A stretch of DNA of 33,436 nucleotides from Bacilli bacterium (lineage in GTDB: Bacteria > Bacillota_I > Bacilli_A > RF39 > UBA660), in the NCBI GenBank assembly GCA_017887885.1, contig JAGHHB010000036.1:1-33436 (forward strand), given 5' to 3'. Below the pieces are notes generated by a model. It ran no database searches and was not told the DNA's origin. It saw only the letters and a list, made by a program, of their open reading frames with translations. Positions 19,661-33,436 of the stretch are shown in pieces. A program made the position numbers and the translations under genes. The number at the start of each line of letters is the position of its first letter. Position 1 is the first letter of the stretch.

Positions 19661-22477
19661 GTGGATAAAATAATTATTAAAGGTGCAAGAGAAAATAATC
19701 TAAAAAATATCAATCTTGAAATTCCCAAGAATAAGTTGGTTGTTATGACAGGAGTATCGGGAAGTGGCAAGTCTTCTTTAGCTTTTGATACAATTTATGC
19801 AGAAGGACAAAGAAGATATGTTGAAAGTCTCTCAGCCTATGCTAGACAATTTCTTGATAATACTGGCAAACCCGATGTCGATACGATTGAAGGCCTATCA
19901 CCTAGTATTTCTATCGATCAAAAGACAACTAATAAGAATCCAAGAAGTACTGTTGGAACAGTTACAGAAATATATGATTATTTGAGGTTATTATTTGCAA
20001 GAGTTGGGATACCCTACTGCCCCAATCATAAAATTCCTATAACCTCACAGTCTATTGAGGAAATGACTAATAGGGTTCTTGATTTAGAAGAAGGAACTAA
20101 AATAATGATTTTGGCGCCTGTCATAAAGGGAGAAAAAGGAACTCATAAAGATCTTTTCGAAAAATTAAGAAAAGAAGGTTATATTAGAGTAAAAGTTGAT
20201 AATGAATTAAAGGATTTGGCTTCAGATATCGAACTAGAAAAAAATAAGAAACACAATATTTCGGTTATCATCGATAGACTAATTATTAAAGAAGGAATAA
20301 GAAGTAGATTATATTCATCATTAGAAACAACGGCTATACTAGGACATGGAAAAGTAGTAATTGACATTATTGATAGCGATGAGATACTTTTATCAGAAGA
20401 CTATGCTTGTCCATATTGTGACTATTCATTAGAAGAATTAGAACCAAGAATCTTTTCTTTTAATGCTCCCTATGGTTCATGTGAAGAGTGTAAAGGATTA
20501 GGGATTAAGTATAAAATAGATCTTGATTTAGTAATTCCTGATAAAAACAAATCCATCATAGAAGGGGCTATAAAACCCATAAATTTAGAAGATGAATCTA
20601 GTATAACTTATACTGAACTTACGACAGTAGCGAACTTTTATCATATCGATTTAAATAAACCAATAAAAGATTTAACTAAAGAACAATTAAATATTATTCT
20701 TTATGGTTCTAAAGATTTATTAACTTTCAATTACAAAGCTAAAAATGGGAATACTAGAAGAACTACTAGTTATTACGAAGGGATAATTACTAATCTTGAG
20801 AGAAGATATATCGAAACGAAAAGTACATGGATAAGAGATTGGATTGAGGGATATATGACAGAAATGCCATGTTCTAGTTGTCATGGTTCAAGGTTAAAGT
20901 CTTCCGTTTTAAATGTTCTCATAAACAAAAAAAACATTTATGAAGTGACCTGTATGTCCATAAGTGATTTAAAAGACTTTATATCAAATTTAAAATTAAC
21001 AGAAGAACAGAAAAAGATATCTGAAATAGTAGTAAAAGAAATACTATCACGTTTAGTTTTCCTAAATAATGTTGGTTTGGGATATTTAACATTAGCCCGT
21101 GAAGCTGGTACTTTGTCTGGTGGAGAAAGTCAAAGAATAAGATTAGCAACACAAATTGGTTCCCGTTTAACAGGAGTACTTTATGTTTTAGATGAACCAA
21201 GTATTGGCCTTCATCAGAAAGATAATCAAAAGTTAATAAATTCCTTATTAGAAATGCGCGATTTAGGTAATTCATTAATAGTTGTCGAGCATGATACTGA
21301 TACTATGCTAGCGGCTGACTATTTAATAGATATAGGTCCAGAAGCTGGCGAGAAGGGAGGATATGTCGTTGCACAAGGGACTCCTCAAGAAGTGATGAAT
21401 AATAAAGATAGTATTACAGGTAGATATTTAAAAGGTTTAGAAAAAATAGATATACCTAAATTTCGCCGAAAAGGTAATAAAAAATATCTCGAAATAAAAG
21501 GAGCTAAAGAAAATAATTTGAAAAATATTAATGTCAAAATTCCGTTAGGAACAATGACTTTAATAACCGGCGTGTCAGGAAGTGGCAAGTCAACACTTAT
21601 TAACGAAATTTTATATAAAACTTTAGCTTCAACGATCTATACTTCTAAAGAAAAACCTGGCCAATGTAGGGCTATTTTGGGTCTTGAAAATATCGATAAG
21701 GTTGTTCAAATATCTCAAACGCCAATTGGAAGAACACCGCGAAGTAATCCTGCCACCTATACAGGAGTTTTTGATGATATAAGAGACATTTTTGCTGAAA
21801 CTAAAGAAGCAAAAATAAGAGGCTATGATAAAGGCCGTTTCAGTTTCAATGTAAAAGGAGGTCGGTGCGAAGCATGTTGGGGTGACGGTGTAAAAAAAAT
21901 AGAAATGCATTTTTTACCAGACGTATATGTACCATGTGAGGTATGTAATGGTACAAGATATAACCGAGAGACTCTAGAAATAAAATATAAAGATAAAAAT
22001 ATTTATGATGTACTAAATTTAAGAGTCGATGAAGCAATGACATTTTTTGAAAATCATCCTAAAGTATTAAATAAATTACAAGTACTACATGATGTTGGTT
22101 TGGGATACATAAAGTTAGGACAACCTGCTCCTACTTTATCTGGTGGTGAAGCTGCTCGAGTAAAACTTTCTAAAGAACTCCAGAAAAAGCCTACCAGCAA
22201 GACTGTTTTCATTCTTGATGAACCGACAACTGGTCTCCACCAAGAAGATATTAAAAAACTTCTCGTTATATTAGAAAGAATTGTTGATAATGGCGATACA
22301 GTAATTATAATTGAACATAATTTAGATGTCATTAAGGTTGCTGATTATATAATTGATTTAGGTCCTGAAGGTGGTGATAATGGTGGCCGTGTCGTAGCTA
22401 CTGGTACACCAGAAGAAGTTGCCCAAATAAAAGAATCTTATACCGGACAATTTTTAAAAGAGATTTTAAATATATAA
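19661..22477 (+). CDS. uvrA: Excinuclease ABC subunit A
   Basis: GTG start after GAAGAGGTG; GVSGSGKSSLAFDTIYAEGQRRYVESLSAYARQFL, CxxC Zn fingers, LSGGESQRIRLA, GGRCEACWGDG, LSGGEAARVKL. Confidence 0.97.
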   Translation: MDKIIIKGARENNLKNINLEIPKNKLVVMTGVSGSGKSSLAFDTIYAEGQRRYVESLSAYARQFLDNTGKPDVDTIEGLSPSISIDQKTTNKNPRSTVGTVTEIYDYLRLLFARVGIPYCPNHKIPITSQSIEEMTNRVLDLEEGTKIMILAPVIKGEKGTHKDLFEKLRKEGYIRVKVDNELKDLASDIELEKNKKHNISVIIDRLIIKEGIRSRLYSSLETTAILGHGKVVIDIIDSDEILLSEDYACPYCDYSLEELEPRIFSFNAPYGSCEECKGLGIKYKIDLDLVIPDKNKSIIEGAIKPINLEDESSITYTELTTVANFYHIDLNKPIKDLTKEQLNIILYGSKDLLTFNYKAKNGNTRRTTSYYEGIITNLERRYIETKSTWIRDWIEGYMTEMPCSSCHGSRLKSSVLNVLINKKNIYEVTCMSISDLKDFISNLKLTEEQKKISEIVVKEILSRLVFLNNVGLGYLTLAREAGTLSGGESQRIRLATQIGSRLTGVLYVLDEPSIGLHQKDNQKLINSLLEMRDLGNSLIVVEHDTDTMLAADYLIDIGPEAGEKGGYVVAQGTPQEVMNNKDSITGRYLKGLEKIDIPKFRRKGNKKYLEIKGAKENNLKNINVKIPLGTMTLITGVSGSGKSTLINEILYKTLASTIYTSKEKPGQCRAILGLENIDKVVQISQTPIGRTPRSNPATYTGVFDDIRDIFAETKEAKIRGYDKGRFSFNVKGGRCEACWGDGVKKIEMHFLPDVYVPCEVCNGTRYNRETLEIKYKDKNIYDVLNLRVDEAMTFFENHPKVLNKLQVLHDVGLGYIKLGQPAPTLSGGEAARVKLSKELQKKPTSKTVFILDEPTTGLHQEDIKKLLVILERIVDNGDTVIIIEHNLDVIKVADYIIDLGPEGGDNGGRVVATGTPEEVAQIKESYTGQFLKEILNI

Positions 22478-22496
22478 CTAAGTTTAAATAAATATA

Positions 22497-22532
22497 AAAA
22501 TAGTTTAGTTACATTTGTAACTGAACTATTTT
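22497..22532. terminator. Bidirectional terminator between convergent uvrA and herA-like genes
   Basis: aaaatagtttagttac-attt-gtaactgaactatttt: 16-bp stem with one G-U, A-run and T-run on either side. Confidence 0.8.
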
Positions 22533-24291
22533 AATTGTGAATATACCATGTTTTATTAATATCACAACTTTGACTGAGTGGTTCAGGATCTGGTTTATCT
22601 AAAATAGCAATAGTGGGCATTTTAAAAGCTGTTCCAAACATAATACATGTTCCTGGATGTAAAGTTTTAATTTTATTAGTTAAAGTAATATCTGCACTAG
22701 ATATAATATCCTTAATAAATTGTAAATCTTTAGGATGAAACATTTTAAAGACTAGAAAATTACTACATTGTGATATCGTTGTTTCCGAAAGTTCAGAAGG
22801 TCTTTGTGAAACAATTCCTAAAAGAAGACCATATTTTCTCCCTTCTTTGGTAATTCTTTCAAAAATATTATATCCTAAAATATCTACATCACTATCGTTT
22901 TGAACATATCGATGTGCTTCCTCTAAAACAATATGGAATGGCATAGTAGCTCTTTGATTCAAAGAAACAATATAATCAAAGAATAACTTTGAATAAATTT
23001 TTACAATATTTTTAGCAAATCTATCATCAACATAGTTAATATTAAAATTAATAATTTGAGCTTTGCGGCCATTAGGACAAGTTAACAATAGACTTATGTA
23101 ACCTTCCCTATTAATATATCCATCATAATCAAAATATTTAGCATAGTCACTATTCATTAAATTATTAAATCTGACTTTAAGTACGTTAGCAAGTTCGAAA
23201 GCCGTATCACTATTTAAAGTACCTTCAGAAATAAGTGCAAACTCTAAAGCAATAGAGAAATCTTTCATAGTATATAAGTATTCACCATTAGGTAAAGATA
23301 ACTCAAAATTTGTTAGACATAGACTTTCTAAATATTCAATTACAATTTCGACATCAGAAAATTCACCACTCTGCTCGACAAAAAGACATTGTCTTATTGT
23401 TCTTGTCCATCCCCCTTTTTCAAGTTTAACTTCTAAATTAAGATTAGTAGTATTAAATTTAGTGAGGATAGATACAAATTTATTTCTAATTAAACTAGGA
23501 GCTTTACCAGAAAATAAAACGTCTAGTAAGCAGCGGGCAATAATGTCGTTTTTTTGATTAATAACTTCTTCTTCTTTTCTGGCAAAATAACTGACTAGTT
23601 TTAGCGCCTTTTCAATAACGGGTATTTGCTGTTTAGAAGTAACATTCATGAGTAGACATAAATCATCGACACCTAATAACCAAAATGGAAAAGATAAAAT
23701 TTCATTTTCTGTACTGTTCAAATCAGTTGTATATACTTTATAATTAATATTTTCGTTTACTTCATGGATTCTTGCAAAAGCCTTCTGATATTCACCATAA
23801 GCATCAAATAAAAAAATATTAGAATAAAAAGGAAGCATCTGGCATTGGTAAAAAATACTCTGTAAAATTTTGGCTACAGAATAAGATTTACCACTTCCTG
23901 AATTACCTAGAATGGCAAAGTGATTGGAAAAAAAATTTCCAACATCAAGCTTGATATCATAATTTGGATAAATATATGACTTTCCTAACTTTATTGCATT
24001 AGGAGCATCATTATTTAAGATAATATCGAGAATATTATTATCAATTAAGTGACAGACAGCTTTAAAAGATGGTTTAGTAATATCTCCAAAAAGAAAGTGA
24101 TTATTTTTAATTTCTCCTACTAAAGAGACCTGCATAATACCATTTCCAATAGCAATGACTTCTCCTATATTGACAATATTATTATCTCTAAAAACAACAT
24201 TCTTGCCAATGAGACCATCATAATCATAGATATTGACTTGTAACTGTACTGATACAATATTATCGTTAATTGCAATAATTTTCCCCAACAT
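22531..24291 (-). CDS. HerA-like (DUF87) hexameric ATPase/translocase
   Basis: FAILGNSGSGKSYSVAKIL (Walker A), FHIVLEEAHRYV (Walker B), ITKEGRKYGLLLGIVSQRPSELSETTISQCSNFLVFKM. ATG at 24291 follows AGGTG; the ORF track uses GTG at 24303. Confidence 0.88.
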   Translation of the reverse strand: MLGKIIAINDNIVSVQLQVNIYDYDGLIGKNVVFRDNNIVNIGEVIAIGNGIMQVSLVGEIKNNHFLFGDITKPSFKAVCHLIDNNILDIILNNDAPNAIKLGKSYIYPNYDIKLDVGNFFSNHFAILGNSGSGKSYSVAKILQSIFYQCQMLPFYSNIFLFDAYGEYQKAFARIHEVNENINYKVYTTDLNSTENEILSFPFWLLGVDDLCLLMNVTSKQQIPVIEKALKLVSYFARKEEEVINQKNDIIARCLLDVLFSGKAPSLIRNKFVSILTKFNTTNLNLEVKLEKGGWTRTIRQCLFVEQSGEFSDVEIVIEYLESLCLTNFELSLPNGEYLYTMKDFSIALEFALISEGTLNSDTAFELANVLKVRFNNLMNSDYAKYFDYDGYINREGYISLLLTCPNGRKAQIINFNINYVDDRFAKNIVKIYSKLFFDYIVSLNQRATMPFHIVLEEAHRYVQNDSDVDILGYNIFERITKEGRKYGLLLGIVSQRPSELSETTISQCSNFLVFKMFHPKDLQFIKDIISSADITLTNKIKTLHPGTCIMFGTAFKMPTIAILDKPDPEPLSQSCDINKTWYIHN

Positions 24292-24425
24292 ATTCTTATT
24301 CACCTATTATAATTATAACAAAAAAAAATATAAAAGTATATAATTAAATAAAATTTTATGATATGTAATATTGTTGATTATATTAAAAAAATATGATAGT
24401 ATTGAAAGAGAGGTGGAATATAATT

Positions 24426-24800
24426 ATGATTTGTACAAATTGTGGTTGTAAATTAGAGATAGGGGCTAAATTTTGTTCTCATTGTGGTAAGGAAACGCCT
24501 TTAGTTAAAGATGATAACGTTGGTAAAATAACAATTATTAGAGCCAAAAAAATTTTTGGTTGGGCTATTCCTTTTGAAGTATATATAGATGAAGTAAAAC
24601 TAGGAGTACTAAAAAATAATACCACACTAACTGCTCCTATTAGCTTAAGCGAACATGAGATTAAATTTACAAGTACTGAAAAAGATGTTATCCAAAGAAT
24701 AGCATTAGATACCAATAAGAAAGATGTGACAATCTATATTATTCCTAAAATGGGACTAATTGCCGCTAAACCAGCAATAAAAGAAATAAAATATAATTAA
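24426..24800 (+). CDS. Zinc-ribbon domain protein with C-terminal beta-rich domain
   Basis: MICTNCGCKLEIGAKFCSHCGKE, four-Cys zinc ribbon. ATG at 24426 after GAGAGGTGG; the ORF track start is 24393. Confidence 0.78.
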   Translation: MICTNCGCKLEIGAKFCSHCGKETPLVKDDNVGKITIIRAKKIFGWAIPFEVYIDEVKLGVLKNNTTLTAPISLSEHEIKFTSTEKDVIQRIALDTNKKDVTIYIIPKMGLIAAKPAIKEIKYN

Positions 24801-24838
24801 AACTATAGATACTCTTTCAGTTTATCTATAGTTTTTTC
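24799..24838. terminator. Bidirectional terminator hairpin overlapping the 3' end of the minus-strand gene
   Basis: aaaactatagata ... tatctatagtttttt, 13-bp perfect stem. Confidence 0.7.
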
Positions 24839-25240
24839 TTGAAATTTTAAGAAATCTTTAGCAAGATGTAACTCTCTATCAGAAACCTCTTTTTCATATT
24901 CTTTAATCTTTTTTTCGATATTGATACTTCCCATTGATACCCCTTTTATCAATAAGTCCGCTACTGCACTATCACTATTATCACTTTTTATTTCTTTACC
25001 AATACCCATATTGGCCATCATTTTTTCAATTGTTCCTTTTTCGGATATTTCAGAATTATTATTTTTCAAATACTTTTTAGTTTTACTCTGCCACTCTTTA
25101 TATTCCATTAAAATATTTTCAACAAATCTTTTAATTTTATTATCTTTATCTTTTAAGTAATCGAGTAGTTTTTCTAAAGTATAGGAAGCCATTTCAGCAT
25201 CTTGATAGATATGAAGTACAAGTTCATTAGTTTCTTTCAT
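24803..25240 (-). CDS. Helical-bundle protein, 145 aa, resembling an uncharacterised Clostridia/Bacilli family
   Basis: LVLHIYQDAEMASYTLEKLLDYLKDK...LLIKGVSMGSINIEKKIKEYEKE...LAKDFLKFQEKTIDKLKEYL; RBS AAAGGATG. Confidence 0.6.
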   Translation of the reverse strand: MKETNELVLHIYQDAEMASYTLEKLLDYLKDKDNKIKRFVENILMEYKEWQSKTKKYLKNNNSEISEKGTIEKMMANMGIGKEIKSDNSDSAVADLLIKGVSMGSINIEKKIKEYEKEVSDRELHLAKDFLKFQEKTIDKLKEYL

Positions 25241-25325
25241 AAAATCATCCTTTCTTGTTATATTATGAACAAGTTTTATTTAAAATATGATTAAAATTAT
25301 TTAAAGATGATTTAGAAATAATAGG

Positions 25326-25648
25326 ATGTATATATTATATGATGGAATATTAGATACTACTAATTTATTTGATACCTTTAAAGATAGAATTCTTTTCTCT
25401 TTTTCTAATAATAAGTCATCTTTAAGCAGATTATCGAAAAATACAATTACAGATAAAGAAATTGTCATCAAAAGTAGAGATATCATTCATTTAATTTAAG
25501 ATGAGGATTTTTATGTTATAATAGGATACTATAAAGTGATAAGGTATCAACTGATCTCTATCCTAAAAAATTAAAAGAATATTTTTTAAAATACAGTATA
25601 GATAATTTAAGAACAATGTTTAATAAAGTTAGTAAAGAGGTGATTTAA
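25326..25648 (+). pseudogene. Probable decayed coding sequence upstream of the ABC-F gene
   Basis: Frame MYILYDGILDTTNLFDTFKDRILFSFSNNKSS...SRDIIHLI*, continuing past TAA as DEDFYVIIGYYKV, then +1 shifted into ...STDLYPKKLKEYFLKYSIDNLRTMFNKVSKEVI*. No good RBS at the first ATG. Confidence 0.4.
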
Positions 25649-25649
25649 T

Positions 25650-27275
25650 ATGTTAGAAATTTCTATATCTAATGTTCAAAAAAATTATGGGTTTAAAAGT
25701 GTATTAGATGGTTTTAATCTAGATATAATGTCTGGAGAAAAAATAGGACTAATAGGACCAAACGGATGTGGAAAAACTACGTTATTCAAATTAATAACCA
25801 AAGAAGAAGATGTCGATAGCGGCAATATAAGCATTAGAAAAGGTACAAATGTTAGATTGCTTTCTCAAATGCCACCAATAGTAGATGACAATTGTACTGT
25901 AAAAGATATATTAACTAGAGATTTTAAAATTATATTTGATATTGAAAAGTGCATGAAAGAATTAGAAAAGAAAATGGCAGTTGCTAATCTTGAACAAGTG
26001 GAAGATATTTTAGAAAAATATGGTAAATTACAAAATAGATTTATGGCTTTAAATGGCTACACAATAGATTCTAAAATTAGTGAATTATGTAATAAATTCA
26101 AAATAGGCGAAGATATGCTTAATAGAAGATTTAATACCTTATCAGGCGGAGAAAAAACAATAGTAAATTTAGCATCAATTATGCTATCTAATCCTGATAT
26201 TTTATTACTAGATGAACCCACTAATAATTTAGATATCGATACTTTAGAGTGGTTAGAAACTTATTTAAAGAATTATTCTGGAACGATAGTATTATGTTCT
26301 CACGATAGATATTTTCTAGATAAGGTAGTTTCTAAAATAGTATTAATAGAAAGAGGTAAATCCGAAATTTTTCATGGTAATTATACATATTATTTAAAAG
26401 AAAATGAAAGAAGGATTTTATCAGAATTTGAGCAATATAAAGATCAACAAAAAATGGTAGAGGCTATGAAAAGAAAAATAAAACAATTGCAAGAGTTTGG
26501 CAAACTTGCATATCCTGGTGGAGAATCTTTCTTTAAAAGGGCCGCTAGTATTCAAAAAAGATTAGATAGATTAGAATTATTGGATAAACCGGAAACAGTT
26601 AAAGAAATTCCATTAAACTTTCAGATGAATGATAGGTCCGGTAAGCAGGTTTTAGTAGTTAGAGATTTTAATCTATCTATTGCAGATAGAAAATTATTAA
26701 ATCAGATTTCTTTTGATATTACATTTAAAGATAAAGTTTGTTTAATGGGAAAAAATGGTAGTGGAAAATCGACATTGATTAAATATATCATGAATATGTA
26801 CGCAAACAATTTGGAAGATCAAAATATCAAAATAGGTAGTAATGTATTTATCGGTTATATTCCCCATACAATTACTTTTTAGGATGAAAATGCAACTATT
26901 TTAGATATAGCAAGGAAAAGCTATTATGGTTCAGAAACTCAGTTAAGATCTTCTTTAGCTAAATTTATGTTTAATGGTGAAAATGTTTTTAAAAAAGTTG
27001 GCACACTGTCAGGCGGAGAAAAAGTTCGCTTAAAACTATTTGAATTAATGCAAAAAAATGTTAATTTACTTATTATGGATGAGCCAACCAATCATATTGA
27101 TATTACGACACAAGAAGTTTTAGAAGAAGCTTTGAAAGATTATTTGGGAACTATTTTATTTATTTCGCACGATAGATATTTTATAAATAAAATTGCCCAA
27201 AAAATATTTTATATAGAAGATCAAAGTATTATTGAATATTTAGGAAATTATGACGTTTACCGCCAAAAAAAATAA
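25650..27275 (+). pseudogene. ABC-F subfamily ATPase interrupted by an in-frame TAG at 26880-26882
   Basis: ORFs 25650-26882 and 26967-27275 lie in the same frame; reading through TAG gives ...VFIGYIPHTITF*DENATILDIARKSYYGSETQLRSSLAKFMFNGENVFKKVGTLSGGEK. Two NBDs: GPNGCGKTTLFK/LSGGEKTIVNLA and GKNGSGKSTLIK/LSGGEKVRLKL. Confidence 0.85.
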
Positions 27276-27309
27276 ATATATTTTTTTCATAGCATATTAA
27301 CAATATACA

Positions 27310-27469
27310 TGAAAGATTATAACATAATTAGCCCCACAAGTCATCTTACAACTTCGACAGCTAAATTTCTTATGAAATATTTGTATTTATCAGCCTAATA
27401 GATCCAACCGTATTAAAACTGGAACTAATATTATCAGAATTAGCAATTATGTTTGAAGACAGAACTTAA
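27310..27469 (+). pseudogene. Possible decayed coding remnant downstream of the ABC-F gene
   Basis: MKDYNIISPTSHLTTSTAKFLMKYLYLSA* followed one frame over by IDPTVLKLELILSELAIMFEDRT*; protein-like composition, no intact ORF. Confidence 0.3.
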
Positions 27470-27514
27470 TTTTTTGAAAATTAAGTCATTTGTTATAAAA
27501 TTTTAAATTTAATG

Positions 27515-27543
27515 TTGACAAATTATTTTGTTTTTAATATAAT
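27515..27543 (+). promoter_or_regulatory. Consensus sigma-A promoter of the NAD salvage operon
   Basis: TTGACA (27515-27520), 17-bp spacer, TATAAT (27538-27543). Confidence 0.9.
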
Positions 27544-27594
27544 GTTATTAACAGATGAAACAAATCTGTTTTCTAACAAAATTTGTTATTAACA
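27543..27594 (+). promoter_or_regulatory. Cluster of overlapping palindromes, putative operator or leader structure
   Basis: TGTTATTAACA (27543-27553), AACAGAT-N7-ATCTGTT (27550-27570), AACAAA-A-TTTGTT (27575-27587), TGTTATTAACA (27584-27594). Confidence 0.65.
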
Positions 27595-27621
27595 AATTAT
27601 TAATAAGAAAGGGTGATAAAA

Positions 27622-28215
27622 ATGATGAAGTTAGAAGATATAAGAAGACTATACATATTTGTAGATACTACCCAAGCGTTTTCAAGAGAAGGCTTATTAG
27701 CGGATCCCTATGTCCTGCATACCGTTCCAGAACTTATTGAAATTGCTAAAATTGGGACTGACGACGAAGCTGGAAAGCTGATGTTTATCGTTGACCTCCA
27801 TACAAAGGATAGTCTTGAGTTTGATAGATATCCCATTCATGCTCTAGAAGGAACAAAGGAAGTTGAAATAATACCTGAATTAAAAATATATACAGAAAAC
27901 TCTTTAATCTTTAAAAAGAATGCCACTAGCGCTATCTTTTCTAAAGGTTTTATCAATACTATATTAAAAATGACATCTCTAGAAAAAGTTATAATATCAG
28001 GTTGGGATACTGACATATGTGTCATGAATTTAGCAATTCCACTTCAAAATTTATTCGATGAAATAAATAGGAGAGTTGAAATAATTGTTCCTCCAAATGC
28101 TGTGGAAACCTATGATTCTCCAGATCATAATAGAGATGAATATAATGAAATGGCATTTAAATTTATGAGACAGTCAGGAATTAAAGTAAGAACTTTAGAA
28201 AGAAAGGATGTATAA
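27622..28215 (+). CDS. pncA: Nicotinamidase / isochorismatase-family hydrolase
   Basis: LYIFVDTTQAFSREGLLADP, MFIVDLHTKDSLEF, VIISGWDTDICVMNLAIPLQN (catalytic Cys); first gene of an NAD salvage cluster. Confidence 0.85.
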   Translation: MMKLEDIRRLYIFVDTTQAFSREGLLADPYVLHTVPELIEIAKIGTDDEAGKLMFIVDLHTKDSLEFDRYPIHALEGTKEVEIIPELKIYTENSLIFKKNATSAIFSKGFINTILKMTSLEKVIISGWDTDICVMNLAIPLQNLFDEINRRVEIIVPPNAVETYDSPDHNRDEYNEMAFKFMRQSGIKVRTLERKDV

Positions 28216-28216
28216 T

Positions 28217-29683
28217 ATGAAGAATATGACAATGTTAATAGATTATTATGAATTTACAATGGGACAAACATACTTTGACAAAGGAGAAGCAAATAAAAAA
28301 GCCTACTTTGATGTTTTCTTTAGAAAGAATCCTTTTAAAGGTGGATATACAATATCGGGAGGATTAGATAAAATAATTGATTATATAAAAAATTTTAAAT
28401 TTACCGATGAGGATATTGAATACCTAAGGCAAAAAGGTAATTTTAGTGAAGAATATTTAAAATATTTAAAAAATATAAGATTTACAGGAGATATTTATGC
28501 AGTACCTGATGGAACAGTAGTCTTTCCTAATGAACCTGTAATCACAGTAAGAGCCAATATAATAGAAGCACAATTAATTGAGACAGCTCTTCTTCTATAT
28601 TTTAATTCAGCATCACTATATACAACAGCCAGTAAGAGAATAACCCAAGCTGCTCAAAATAGGCCAGTTATGGAGTTTGGAGCAAGAAGAGGAAGAGGTG
28701 ATGAAGCTACCATTGAAGCCTCTAAATATGCTTATATAGGAGGATGCGTAGGAACTAGTAATACCCTTAGTGCTCTTATTAATAATATCCCAGCAATGGG
28801 AACAATGGCTCACAGTATGATATGCGACTCTTCTAGCGAATACCAAGCCTTTTTAGATTATGCTAAAAGTAATCCTAATAATTGTGTATTTTTAGTAGAC
28901 ACCTATAACACATTAAAAAGTGGAATACCTAACGCCATTAAAGTAGCCAATGATTATTTAAAACCTAATAATATAGAATTTAAAGGCATCAGAATCGATA
29001 GTGGGGATCTTGCTTATTTGTCAAAAGAAGCTAGAAAAATGCTAGATCAAGCAGGATATACCAATACTCAAATATGCTTAAGTAATGGATTAGATGAGTA
29101 TACTATAAAAAGTTTGATTGATCAGGGATCTTGCGTCGATTCCTTTGGTGTAGGTGATAATATTGCCGCTACAAACGATCGAGTTGGAGGTGTATATAAG
29201 TTAGTTGGAGTTGAAGAAGAAGGAATTATTAAGCCAAGAATTAAATTAAGTGATACTAAGGAAAAAACAATTAATCCACACTACAAAAAAGTATATCGTT
29301 TTTATGATAAAGAAACAGGATATGCACTAGGAGATGTTTTAGCCGTTTATGATGAAATTATACCTTCTGAAAAATACGTTTTAATAGATCCCAATGATGA
29401 ATTTAAAACTGTAACTATTAGTAACTATAATATAAGACAGTTACAAGTACCAATATTTATAAATGGTAATTTAGTATATCAAGTACCAACAATTGATGAG
29501 CGAAGAAGATACTGTGAAGAAGAATTTAAAACAATATATCCCGAAATCAAAAGAAGTTTAAATCCACATGAATATTATGTCGATCTATCATCTAAATTGC
29601 TAGAGTTAAAAAAAGAGCTCATATTAAATAATAGAGGAACCGTCAATAATAAAACAAGAAAGAGAGTAAAAGGACATGCGTAA
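28217..29683 (+). CDS. pncB: Nicotinate phosphoribosyltransferase
   Basis: LIDYYEFTMGQTYFDKGE, FFRKNPFKGGYTISGGL, EFGARRGRGDEATIEAS, GTMAHSMI, GIRIDSGDLAYLSKEARKMLD. Confidence 0.95.
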   Translation: MKNMTMLIDYYEFTMGQTYFDKGEANKKAYFDVFFRKNPFKGGYTISGGLDKIIDYIKNFKFTDEDIEYLRQKGNFSEEYLKYLKNIRFTGDIYAVPDGTVVFPNEPVITVRANIIEAQLIETALLLYFNSASLYTTASKRITQAAQNRPVMEFGARRGRGDEATIEASKYAYIGGCVGTSNTLSALINNIPAMGTMAHSMICDSSSEYQAFLDYAKSNPNNCVFLVDTYNTLKSGIPNAIKVANDYLKPNNIEFKGIRIDSGDLAYLSKEARKMLDQAGYTNTQICLSNGLDEYTIKSLIDQGSCVDSFGVGDNIAATNDRVGGVYKLVGVEEEGIIKPRIKLSDTKEKTINPHYKKVYRFYDKETGYALGDVLAVYDEIIPSEKYVLIDPNDEFKTVTISNYNIRQLQVPIFINGNLVYQVPTIDERRRYCEEEFKTIYPEIKRSLNPHEYYVDLSSKLLELKKELILNNRGTVNNKTRKRVKGHA

Positions 29684-30272
29684 AGAAAAGCTTCAAGAAT
29701 TAAAAAAGTATATTGAAGAATTAAAAGTAGTTGCGCAAATAAAAGAAGCCAAATCATCTTTTATTACCAGTATTCCTTATACTTTTAAATTAAATAATGG
29801 TGCCTATATTAAACGTGAGCAGATTCTCAAAAATAATAATGATGGTAGCGCTGTCATCGTAATTCCCTTGACTATTGATAATGAAATACTTATGGTTGTC
29901 GAACCTAGAGTATTTACCGCGAAAACTGTTTCAGTATCTTTTCCATCAGGATACCTTGAAGAAGGAGAAAGCCCCTATGAGGCAGCCCTTCGTGAACTTA
30001 AAGAAGAAACGGGATATATTCCAAAATATATAAAATTACTAGATTCATTCTATCAAGATGAGGGGTGCTCTAAAGCTTTTAATCATATTTTCATAGCTTT
30101 TAATTGTACTTGTAAATCCACACAAAGTTTAGATGAAGGAGAAATCATAAGATATATGACATTTAATCTAAAAGAATTAGATAAATTAGAACAAATGGGG
30201 TACTTAAATAGTGCTAACAGTAAACTAGCCCTAGCAAAGGGTAGAGAATATTTAAGAAAGAAGATGAGATAA
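29676..30272 (+). CDS. Nudix hydrolase (ADP-ribose pyrophosphatase-like)
   Basis: Nudix box GYLEEGESPYEAALRELKEETGY. Confidence 0.92.
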   Translation: MRKEKLQELKKYIEELKVVAQIKEAKSSFITSIPYTFKLNNGAYIKREQILKNNNDGSAVIVIPLTIDNEILMVVEPRVFTAKTVSVSFPSGYLEEGESPYEAALRELKEETGYIPKYIKLLDSFYQDEGCSKAFNHIFIAFNCTCKSTQSLDEGEIIRYMTFNLKELDKLEQMGYLNSANSKLALAKGREYLRKKMR

Positions 30273-31036
30273 TGAAAAAATTTAACGCCGAGACAGAAGT
30301 TAATAATATCGTAAATTTTGTAAAAAAATATTATAAAGATAACAATTTAGGAGGAGCTATTTTAGGTATTAGTGGCGGAAAAGATTCTGCTGTAGTAGCG
30401 GCACTTTTAGTAAAGGCTTTAGGAAGTGAAAATGTAATAGGGCTTACTCTTCCATGCCATTCAGCAAGTGAAGATAAAACTGATGCTAAACTGGTAAGCG
30501 ATTATTATGGAATAGAATTAGTAAACTTTGATATAACTAATACTTTTGATACTTTCAAAAGTGAACTACATAATTTAAAAGTATTTACCGATGAAGAAAC
30601 AAAAAATAGTGATATTAATTTAAAACCGAGACTTAGAATGGCTACTTTATATTATTTTGCAGCATTATATACTGCATTAAAAGGGAAAACCTATTTAGTA
30701 GCGGGTACTTCAAACAAGTGTGAATTATATGTAGGATACTTTACTAAGGGCGGTGATTCTGTTCATGACATATCTTTAATTTCAGATTATACTGTTGATG
30801 AAGTAATAAAAATAGGTGAATACTTAAAAGTACCAGATAAAGTATTATATAAAAAACCAAATGACGGCTTATCTAATTTAACAGATGAAGATAAGTTAGG
30901 AGTAAAATATAGTGATATTGCTACTTATATGGAAGATAAAACCTTACTAGATGATAGCACTAAAGAAAAGATAGAAAAATTACATAATAATAACTTACAT
31001 AAATTTAATATACCAACATATAAAAAAGGAGAATAA
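30272..31036 (+). CDS. nadE: NH3-dependent NAD+ synthetase
   Basis: GISGGKDSAVVAALLVKALG, LVAGTSNKCELYVGYFTKGGDSVHDI; no glutaminase domain. Confidence 0.94.
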   Translation: MKKFNAETEVNNIVNFVKKYYKDNNLGGAILGISGGKDSAVVAALLVKALGSENVIGLTLPCHSASEDKTDAKLVSDYYGIELVNFDITNTFDTFKSELHNLKVFTDEETKNSDINLKPRLRMATLYYFAALYTALKGKTYLVAGTSNKCELYVGYFTKGGDSVHDISLISDYTVDEVIKIGEYLKVPDKVLYKKPNDGLSNLTDEDKLGVKYSDIATYMEDKTLLDDSTKEKIEKLHNNNLHKFNIPTYKKGE

Positions 31037-31040
31037 AAGC

Positions 31041-31580
31041 ATGAAAATAGGAGTATTTGTAGGAAGTTTTGATCCAGTACATAAAGGTCATACTAACATA
31101 ATTAATTATTTGATAAATAAAAAAATAGTTGATAAAATCCTAGTTATTGCAACTGGTAATTATTGGCATAAACAAAATATAACTGATTTAAAAATAAGAT
31201 TAGAAATGTTAGAGTTTATAAAGAATAATAATATTATAATTGATAAAAAACATAATAATCTAGCATATACATATCAAATATTAAAATCTTTAAAAAAAGA
31301 AAATCCGAGCGATGAATTTTATTTAGTAATAGGAGCAGATAATGCAAATACTCTCGTCAATTGGAAACATTTTTATGAGCTAACAAAATATGGAATAATT
31401 ATAATAAAAAGAGATAACATTAAAATAAACTTAAAAACAGACAAATCAATAGTAATAAATAAAAATTTTGAAAGTATATCATCTACAAAGATAAGAAATG
31501 ATGTAACCAAATGGAAAGATTTTTTAGATGAAAATATTTACCATTATATAAAAGAACATAAATTATACAGTTTTAAATAA
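31041..31580 (+). CDS. nadD: Nicotinate-nucleotide adenylyltransferase
   Basis: VGSFDPVHKGHTNII (HxGH), IGADNANTLVNWKHF, ISSTKIRNDV. Confidence 0.92.
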   Translation: MKIGVFVGSFDPVHKGHTNIINYLINKKIVDKILVIATGNYWHKQNITDLKIRLEMLEFIKNNNIIIDKKHNNLAYTYQILKSLKKENPSDEFYLVIGADNANTLVNWKHFYELTKYGIIIIKRDNIKINLKTDKSIVINKNFESISSTKIRNDVTKWKDFLDENIYHYIKEHKLYSFK

Positions 31581-31658
31581 AAGAATATAAACTAAATATA
31601 GAAAAATATGATAAAATAAATATACATATACAAAAAAATATTATTAGGATGTGATATT

Positions 31659-33436
31659 ATGCTCCAATCTTTAAAAATGATAAATGATTGTGAAAATTAT
31701 AAAAATGAGAAATGGTTAAGTTATTTATATAATACCAAAGAAAAAAATTTTAACGTCTTAAATGTTCGAAGTTTAAGCCAGATAAATAAGTATTCTGTAT
31801 TAAATTATGTTAGAAAAACTTTAGAAATATTGAATGATATAAACAGTAGAGAAAATTTAGATAATGAAGTATTGAATTATATAGAAGAAACTTTAAAATG
31901 GAGTGAAGTTGCTAAAACAGGAAGTAAAAAAGATCGTCAAAGATGGAAGGCTAATAAATACGATCTATTTTGTCATAATATTGGTTCTTCAGAAATATAT
32001 AATGAAACTAATAACAACATTATTATTAGTACCTTGATTAGAACACATGGTCTTATTGGACAGTATATTAAAGGAGAAGTAAACCTTGAAAAAAATATCT
32101 TATTATATAATTTGGTCAAAGAAAAGAAAATATCAAAAGAAAAATTAAGAGACATTTTAAGAATATTAAATAAGTGTATAATTGAAGCAGTATCACCTGA
32201 TTTATATATAAGAATCAAAGATAGCGTAAATATGACTATTGATCTCATATTAGATAATAAAATGGAAGAAAAAATAAATATTCAAGATAAATTAGAGAGA
32301 TTAAATGGTAATCTAGCAGAGTCTGATCTTAAATATATTCATAATCTTAACTATCATTTTGCATTTAAACTACAAAAATTATTTGCAAAATTTGAATTAT
32401 GGTATTATGAGGGCGCTTTAAAAGATTTTAGTATTAGTGATCAAGTCAAAATATTATTGTATATCTTTGAAAATCAACCAGAAAATGTAGAATATTTAAC
32501 TTTTGAATCTTTTATGCATAGTATGTATTTAGATTACAAAGATAGAAGAGAAATAAATATTTATAAGAAAAGAATTATTGAAAATTTCTTAGAAGAAATC
32601 AGTCTTGAAGACATTGTAAATCATAATATTAATCCCAATCCACACCTTGATTTTGAGATAAAAAAAGTGAATAAAACATTAGTATTTAATTTTAAATTTT
32701 CTCTTCAAGCCAAAAAATTAATAGAGTTTTGTGAAGTTGCATGTACCAGTAATAGCTTATATCAAAAAGCAACCTATATGCTTTACGACTTATTTGGCTT
32801 CAGAAAAGATGTTTATGATAGATTTTATAATGAAATAGATTATCTAAATACCATGAATAATTCTTTAAAACAAAAAGCTATTATTCTTGATTATATTGTT
32901 GGAAATAGCGTTTTAGATGTTGGACCAGGTGGTGGAGCTTTACTTAATCTAATCGAAGAGAAAATGCCAAGTTTAGATATAAAAGGAATTGATTTATCAC
33001 AAAATGTTATTGATGAATTAACTAAAAAGAAAATAAAAGAAAATCATAGCTGGAATATTATTAAAGGAGACGCTTTAAATTTATCTAAATACTTTGCTAA
33101 AGATAGTATTGATACTATTATTTATTCATCAATCATTCACGAACTATATTCATATATTCCATATAATGGTAAAAAATTTAACAAAGATACAATAAAAACA
33201 ACTTTGAAAGAAGCATACTCAATTTTAAAAGTAAGAGGTAGAATAATAATTAGAGATGGCATCATGAGTAGGCCTATCGATAGTTATCGCATAATTGAAT
33301 TTAATGACAAAAACGATATCAATAAATTAGATCGTTATATAAATGACTTTAAAGGAAGAAAAATAACTTATGAAAAAATAAGTGACACTACTGTCAAAAT
33401 GTTAGTAAACGACGCTATGGAGTTTTTGTACACATA
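31659..33436 (+). CDS. Large protein with uncharacterised N-terminal region and C-terminal class I SAM-dependent methyltransferase domain; 3' end beyond window
   Basis: Uninterrupted frame of 592 codons from ATG 31659 (RBS aggatg) to window end, absent from the ORF track because it has no stop here. N-terminal EETLKWSEVAKTGSKKDRQRWKANKYDLFCHNIGSSEIY...IRTHGLIGQYIKGEV; C-terminal SVLDVGPGGGALLNLIEEKMPSLDIKGIDLS (motif I). Confidence 0.85.
   Translation, partial: MLQSLKMINDCENYKNEKWLSYLYNTKEKNFNVLNVRSLSQINKYSVLNYVRKTLEILNDINSRENLDNEVLNYIEETLKWSEVAKTGSKKDRQRWKANKYDLFCHNIGSSEIYNETNNNIIISTLIRTHGLIGQYIKGEVNLEKNILLYNLVKEKKISKEKLRDILRILNKCIIEAVSPDLYIRIKDSVNMTIDLILDNKMEEKINIQDKLERLNGNLAESDLKYIHNLNYHFAFKLQKLFAKFELWYYEGALKDFSISDQVKILLYIFENQPENVEYLTFESFMHSMYLDYKDRREINIYKKRIIENFLEEISLEDIVNHNINPNPHLDFEIKKVNKTLVFNFKFSLQAKKLIEFCEVACTSNSLYQKATYMLYDLFGFRKDVYDRFYNEIDYLNTMNNSLKQKAIILDYIVGNSVLDVGPGGGALLNLIEEKMPSLDIKGIDLSQNVIDELTKKKIKENHSWNIIKGDALNLSKYFAKDSIDTIIYSSIIHELYSYIPYNGKKFNKDTIKTTLKEAYSILKVRGRIIIRDGIMSRPIDSYRIIEFNDKNDINKLDRYINDFKGRKITYEKISDTTVKMLVNDAMEFLYT

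Follow-up and report, generated by a model that had tools for sequence, protein, structure and literature searches.

A window of 33,436 nucleotides of bacterial DNA, the whole stretch that was analysed, ends within the gene of a two-domain methyltransferase that, judged from gene order, is part of an NAD operon and has remained with NAD genes in nearly all of the genomes in which it is complete. We tentatively propose that it is an accessory SAM-dependent methyltransferase of NAD salvage that is controlled by NrtR and acts on a by-product of NAD turnover, either a pyridine or a nucleotide, a role that we consider a good possibility although short of probable.

Operon context of the methyltransferase gene

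The NAD genes of the window and the methyltransferase gene that follows them are arranged as follows.

27613..28215, + strand: pncA-like nicotinamidase (sequence and position; no NCBIfam match at E<1e-5)
28208..29683, + strand: pncB, nicotinate phosphoribosyltransferase (603.6 bits, cut-off 469)
29676..30272, + strand: Nudix hydrolase, probable ADP-ribose pyrophosphatase type (PF00293, 62.9 bits)
30272..31036, + strand: nadE, NAD synthase (TIGR00552, 174 bits)
31041..31580, + strand: nadD, nicotinate-nucleotide adenylyltransferase (TIGR00482, 113.3 bits, cut-off 112.45)
31659..33436, + strand: methyltransferase, NCBIfam NF005379 (PRK06922), residues 1-592 of 673 (open reading frame, contig join, family match)

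The original prediction described an unbroken frame of 592 codons that starts 78 nt after nadD (end at 31580, start at 31659) and runs to the window edge, and both features were found again; the window edge is also the contig end. It recommended extending the contig to obtain the full protein, and this can be done within the same assembly since the last 127 nt of the window are the exact start of a second contig (C20). Such overlaps between neighbouring contigs are a typical remnant of k-mer assemblers. The first frame of C20 (3-371, 122 aa; locus L004, 1-371) continues in register as residues 552-673, giving a joined protein of 673 aa (551+122), the last 81 residues of which are encoded on C20 only. 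The join is supported by the separate contig of a metagenome-assembled genome (L005), which shows the same downstream genes (pncC, nadK and nrtR). The same contig encodes a protein (L005:2478-4499) of identical length (673 aa) with 80% sequence identity, which together with the full-length family match shows that the frame is not a chance one. Residues 2-592 align with positions 2-596 of the 677-position NF005379 model (605.1 bits, E 1.6e-181; curated cut-off 602 bits), the C-terminus borne by C20 gives 165 bits at positions 559-676, and seven complete relatives score 645-705 bits. By these matches the methyltransferase is a member of NF005379 over its full length. The family itself was already in the database without a function, PRK06922 was named in no paper found by literature search, and what is newly added here is its NAD-operon context.

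The gene had been placed directly after an NAD-salvage operon. By gene order it is instead inside the operon, which continues on C20 with an NMN-deamidase-like gene (pncC/CinA-C), nadK (NAD kinase) and nrtR (L004:1687-2508), the product of which is an NrtR-type Nudix repressor with PF21906 and NUDIX matches over cut-off. The methyltransferase gene and pncC are 2 nt apart, pncC and nadK overlap by 4 nt, and overlapping junctions are also present in genomes G078, G223 and G205. Thus, as far as gene order can tell, the methyltransferase shares one operon with NAD genes and a regulator of the NrtR type.

Nine full-length genes were analysed, from the window genome (G000), G205, G078, G223, G695, G149, G069, G119 and L005; eight of the carriers are confirmed in one bacterial family and the ninth, L005, is an uncultured Bacilli MAG. 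It had been suggested that homologues might recur beside NAD genes in other genomes, with the lack of any conserved NAD neighbourhood speaking against a link, and a neighbourhood of this kind was found in eight of the nine. In seven (all but G069 and G119) NAD genes adjoin the methyltransferase gene directly, in G069 it lies 2.2 kb after nrtR, and in G119 no NAD gene is nearby. There are five types of junction, namely nadD|MTase|pncC (G000 and G205), nadR|MTase|pncC (L005), nadD|MTase|nadK (G078), pncC|MTase|nrtR (G223 and G695) and rSAM|MTase|nrtR (G149). Assuming, as our own estimate, ∼1,100 genes per genome of which about ten are NAD genes, adjacency by chance would be expected in ∼2% of cases per genome, and adjacency in seven of nine is therefore far beyond chance even with some shared ancestry. 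The link between the methyltransferase and NAD genes, as read from gene order, is strong. It strengthens the connection to NAD inferred in the original prediction, which had suggested either a nicotinamide/nucleotide metabolite or an RNA/tRNA as a possible substrate. The operons of L005 and G069 contain pnuC-nadR while the others contain pncA-pncB, and what they have in common is the core of nadE/nadD, nadK, pncC and nrtR, not one salvage route. Homologues of pncA head the operons of G695 and of the congeners G002, G006 and G010, the last three of which have an NAD operon without the methyltransferase.

Several further genes were observed in these operons. A 326-aa protein with a Tad4 domain is encoded between nadK and nrtR in G078 (L025:6158-7138, − strand), and a Thoeris-inhibitor-type domain in a bacterial NAD operon is unexpected. 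Three different radical-SAM proteins are encoded inside NAD operons that contain the methyltransferase (L023:6964-7905, L024:2450-3520 and L031:11544-12551), their nearest families being viperin, MiaB/RimO and RlmN/Cfr, all sub-threshold. Small proteins of ∼134 aa that are alike by eye are found in the NAD operons of four genomes (L023:5951-6367, L031:15269-15673, L039:7054-7458 and L041:2757-3158), three times between nadE and nadD, and the L023, L031 and L039 copies gave no Pfam match. PRPP-synthetase-like genes are present in two genomes (L040:7892-8941 and L020:1855-2649) and could plausibly supply PRPP for PncB. Elsewhere in the window, an ABC-F type ATPase is spread over two frames (25650-26882 and 26967-27275; 410 and 102 aa), which resemble a single gene that a frameshift or deletion has disrupted.

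Promoter region, distribution and operon history

A promoter and two palindromes precede pncA.

27515..27543, + strand: sigma-70-type promoter, perfect TTGACA-17-TATAAT (12/12 matches), ∼70 nt before pncA
27538..27553, + strand: candidate operator TATAATGTTATTAACA overlapping the −10 box, with the core palindrome GTTATTAAC at 27544-27552; putative NrtR site (shared 16-mer)
27583..27595, + strand: second palindrome TTGTTATTAACAA, 30 nt before pncA, with a further copy of the GTTATTAAC core at 27585 (pattern search)

No other TTGACA-17-TATAAT site exists within 27200-33436, and no Rfam RNA, including the NAD riboswitch, was detected in 22400-33436. The 16-mer TATAATGTTAWTAACA heads the NAD operons of five genomes, three with the methyltransferase (G000, G078 and G695) and two without it (G002 and G010), and it is found nowhere else in the 65 fetched loci, G006 having a copy with one change. 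On a plain reading the palindrome in TATAATGTTAWTAACA would be a repressor site, with the NrtR that the operon itself encodes as the obvious repressor candidate. The second palindrome is also present 32 nt before pncA in G695 (L031), and its pattern occurs at 3 sites in the genome compared with 1 for a control pattern. Pairwise divergence of the methyltransferase follows that of NrtR (rho 0.78, 15 pairs), with the genome pairs not being independent of each other.

Of 386 genomes from the bacterial family of the window genome, 12 contain a match to NF005379, eight of them (including the window genome) over the cut-off, so that carriers make up ∼3% of the family. The four matches below the cut-off are three short relatives that consist of the methyltransferase part only and one C-terminal remnant. 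Besides the window genome, only two of 392 genomes from across the phylum match, both from the same family, and no homologue was found in a phage collection and viral contigs. Matches outside the family, on Bacillus velezensis plasmids, cover the methyltransferase domain only. The short sister family (L019:7986-8810, L027:7808-8722, L032:7489-8427 and L033:6979-7878) is encoded on these plasmids and by three genomes, in no case near NAD genes. The remnant (L026:8877-9161, G105) retains the last ∼110-130 codons with stops upstream and lies between glyS and sepF-like genes; since glyS, sepF and nrtR are close together in G078, it could be what is left of the same locus after decay.

The NAD genes of the window genome differ from UvrA in their nearest relatives. 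UvrA is 86-89% identical to that of congeners and 72% to that of G205, whereas NadD is 69% identical to G205, 74% to L005 and 39-42% to congeners. The corresponding values for NadK are 62% (G205) and 77% (L005) versus 52-55% (congeners), and for PncC 71% and 69% versus 64-67%. The methyltransferase is 77-80% identical to those of G205 and L005. Because NadD, NadK and PncC are closer to G205 and L005 while UvrA is closer to congeners, the operon with its methyltransferase seems, from these identities, to move between genera as a block. Horizontal replacement of NAD operons likewise appears to have occurred within this genus (window 27613-31580, L004 and L039-L041), in that NAD-gene identity between congeners is far below UvrA identity.

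The two domains of the protein

The protein divides into an N-terminal domain and a methyltransferase domain, the latter only partly encoded in the window.

31659..32813, + strand: N-terminal helical domain, ∼residues 1-385, fold unassigned (conservation; PDB, Pfam and fold searches; model)
31893..32081, + strand: most conserved stretch of the N-terminal domain, residues 79-141 (alignment of nine sequences)
32814..33436, + strand: class I SAM methyltransferase domain, visible part (Pfam, fold matches, conserved motifs)

The class I SAM motif that had been called clear from the sequence, VLDVGPGGGALLNLIEE, corresponds to residues 418-434 (VLDVGPGGG... at 32910-32960, with DVGPGGG as residues 420-426), and its assignment is borne out by the Pfam models Methyltransf_11, 25, 31 and 12, all over cut-off with E ∼1e-8 and confined to the SAM core (residues ∼414-534). 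The motifs SSIIHELYSY and RIIIRDG are found further on in the domain, and there are more than 600 PDB fold matches at E<0.001. By its Rossmann-type core and its motif I (E/DxGxGxG) the protein is a class I SAM-dependent methyltransferase. The short forms (the B. velezensis plasmid protein WP_204530693.1 and those of G127, G725 and G783) share with the long form the SAM core and the C-terminal extension EFLYTYTWG..S...EVQEQFG. However, they lack the N-terminal domain, have GCGSG in place of GPGGG and have no NAD genes beside them; the identity of long forms to the G127 short form is 30-35%.

No nameable domain had been recognised ahead of the SAM motif. This stands for the N-terminal ∼385 residues, which are without a Pfam, PDB-sequence or fold match, but not for the whole protein given its match to NF005379. 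Pfam has no family for this domain in any of the nine sequences (best E 0.02), and the single match to PDB sequences (E 0.12) is at chance level. AlphaFold2 gives confident models both of the complete L005 protein (mean pLDDT 85) and of its N-terminal domain alone (pLDDT 87, pTM 0.85). A fold search of the domain had been advised, and Foldseek with this model gave no match at E<0.001 in PDB or viral models. The domain was not found without the methyltransferase elsewhere in the phylum (392 genomes), one match of 18.8 bits being at chance level.

Two peptides of this domain, LKWSEVAK...SSEIY (residues 79-114) and RTHGLIGQYIKGEV (residues 128-141), had been singled out as conserved-looking and as possible parts of a binding or active site. 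That proved a good guess in that they are among its most conserved stretches. Within residues 79-141, W81, K86, W96, H106-N107, T129-H130-G131, Q135, G139 and E140 are invariant in all nine sequences.

Below threshold, HD-superfamily or HD-containing proteins (PgpH, PDE5/PDE2, SAMHD1 and bacterial GlyRS) are frequent among the PDB fold matches of the domain (all E≥0.3). H106 and H130 are 24 residues apart, as are H53 and H77 in Rel enzymes. However, the HD signature H...HD...D is not present, as the D expected next to H130 is glycine (G131) in all nine sequences. A profile comparison gave no higher scores with HD proteins of the fetched loci than with 40 control proteins. The domain may be a highly diverged HD-type fold in which the metal site is incomplete. 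The idea that the methyltransferase replaces YqeK, an HD-type Ap4A hydrolase, beside nadD was also set aside as uninformative because most genomes of the family, whether or not they carry the methyltransferase, have no YqeK or one at the limit of detection.

Proposed role, alternatives and known systems

We propose that the single promoter with its overlapping palindrome would drive co-transcription of pncA-pncB-nudix-nadE-nadD-[MTase]-pncC-nadK-nrtR. In S. sobrinus, NrtR is released by ADP-ribose (PMC12735969). Here, high NAD turnover would most likely cause an ADP-ribose-sensing NrtR to let go, de-repressing the operon including the methyltransferase. The C-terminal domain would then carry out methyl transfer while the helical N-terminal domain most likely holds a ligand derived from NAD or orients the substrate. 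As substrate class, a small pyridine or nucleotide that arises as NAD is turned over (nicotinamide, NMN/NaMN, ADP-ribose or a damaged form) is most likely, and its methylation would serve to eliminate or protect it or to adjust flux. That the operons share nadE/nadD, nadK, pncC and nrtR and not one salvage route speaks for such a turnover product rather than a single imported precursor. Counting against this proposal are the copy in G119, isolated from NAD genes, and the lack of a match to nicotinamide N-methyltransferases (NNMT/PNMT/TEMT), no NNMT model being among the Pfam matches with E up to 1 and the similarity to PDB chains of NNMT being marginal (E 0.8-1.0) and through the generic SAM core only.

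The main rival to this proposal is RNA modification, in which a methyltransferase of tRNA, rRNA or NAD-capped RNA has its expression tied to the NAD level and binds RNA with the helical N-terminal domain. Polynucleotide adenylyltransferases occur among the sub-threshold viral fold matches of this domain, the short relatives have weak matches to a PHROG annotated as tRNA methyltransferase, and the operons of two relatives encode radical-SAM proteins distantly like MiaB or RlmN/Cfr. However, all of these scores are far under curated cut-offs or non-significant, no RNA-binding domain was recognised and there is no evident reason for an RNA modifier to recur in NAD operons, and we regard this explanation as unlikely. 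We give a little less weight to the methyltransferase being a passenger, without NAD function, of a horizontally exchanged operon that picks up extra genes. Only ∼3% of family genomes carry it and congeners do without it, so that it is dispensable and could be a passenger, which also counts against our proposal. The operon does look exchanged, given the closest relatives of UvrA on the one hand and of NadD, NadK and PncC on the other, and its extra genes (radical-SAM, PRPP synthetase, Tad4-domain protein and the small family) differ from operon to operon. Yet the methyltransferase has stayed with NAD genes in eight of nine genomes across five different gene junctions, is conserved over 673 aa and has translationally coupled junctions. 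Highly improbable, in our view, is a role in conflict with phage, in which the operon recruited genes that shield NAD pools or signals from NAD-depleting or cADPR-signalling defence, or that join in it. The Tad4 domain in G078 (type I Thoeris inhibitor, PF25186, 47 bits, cut-off 25) and the radical-SAM protein of the G223 operon with viperin as its best, sub-threshold match (51.6 of 180 bits) would suit such a role, and there is a precedent in a phage NAD operon known to have acquired a gene of this sort (PMC13232231). However, each hint comes from one genome and concerns a gene other than the methyltransferase, which itself has no PADLOC match (E up to 0.1) and no homologue in phage or viral collections.

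Bacterial NAD metabolism is considered almost fully charted, and it is not known to include a methylation step. That this methyltransferase has remained with NAD genes despite rearrangements and horizontal transfer, and looks to be controlled in response to NAD, points towards a reaction or regulatory step that is missing from the chart. It is conceivable, if rather doubtful, that this is a new activity in NAD metabolism, an NrtR-controlled methyltransferase for an NAD-derived metabolite (or NAD-bearing RNA) whose recognition domain has a fold unseen in solved structures.

NNMT is, like the methyltransferase described here, a class I SAM enzyme, and an NNMT-like reaction would suit the operon. 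Described NrtR regulons, such as that of Streptococcus sobrinus (PMC12735969), similarly combine an NrtR-type repressor with NAD salvage genes (pncA, pncB, nadD, nadE and pnuC-nadR), but in the papers searched no methyltransferase was described as a member. From NF005379 the protein differs in nothing structural, and the family label, class I SAM-dependent methyltransferase, carries no function. The NAD context thus offers a way into the function of a family so far known by number only (PRK06922) and of a domain unlike any structure yet solved.
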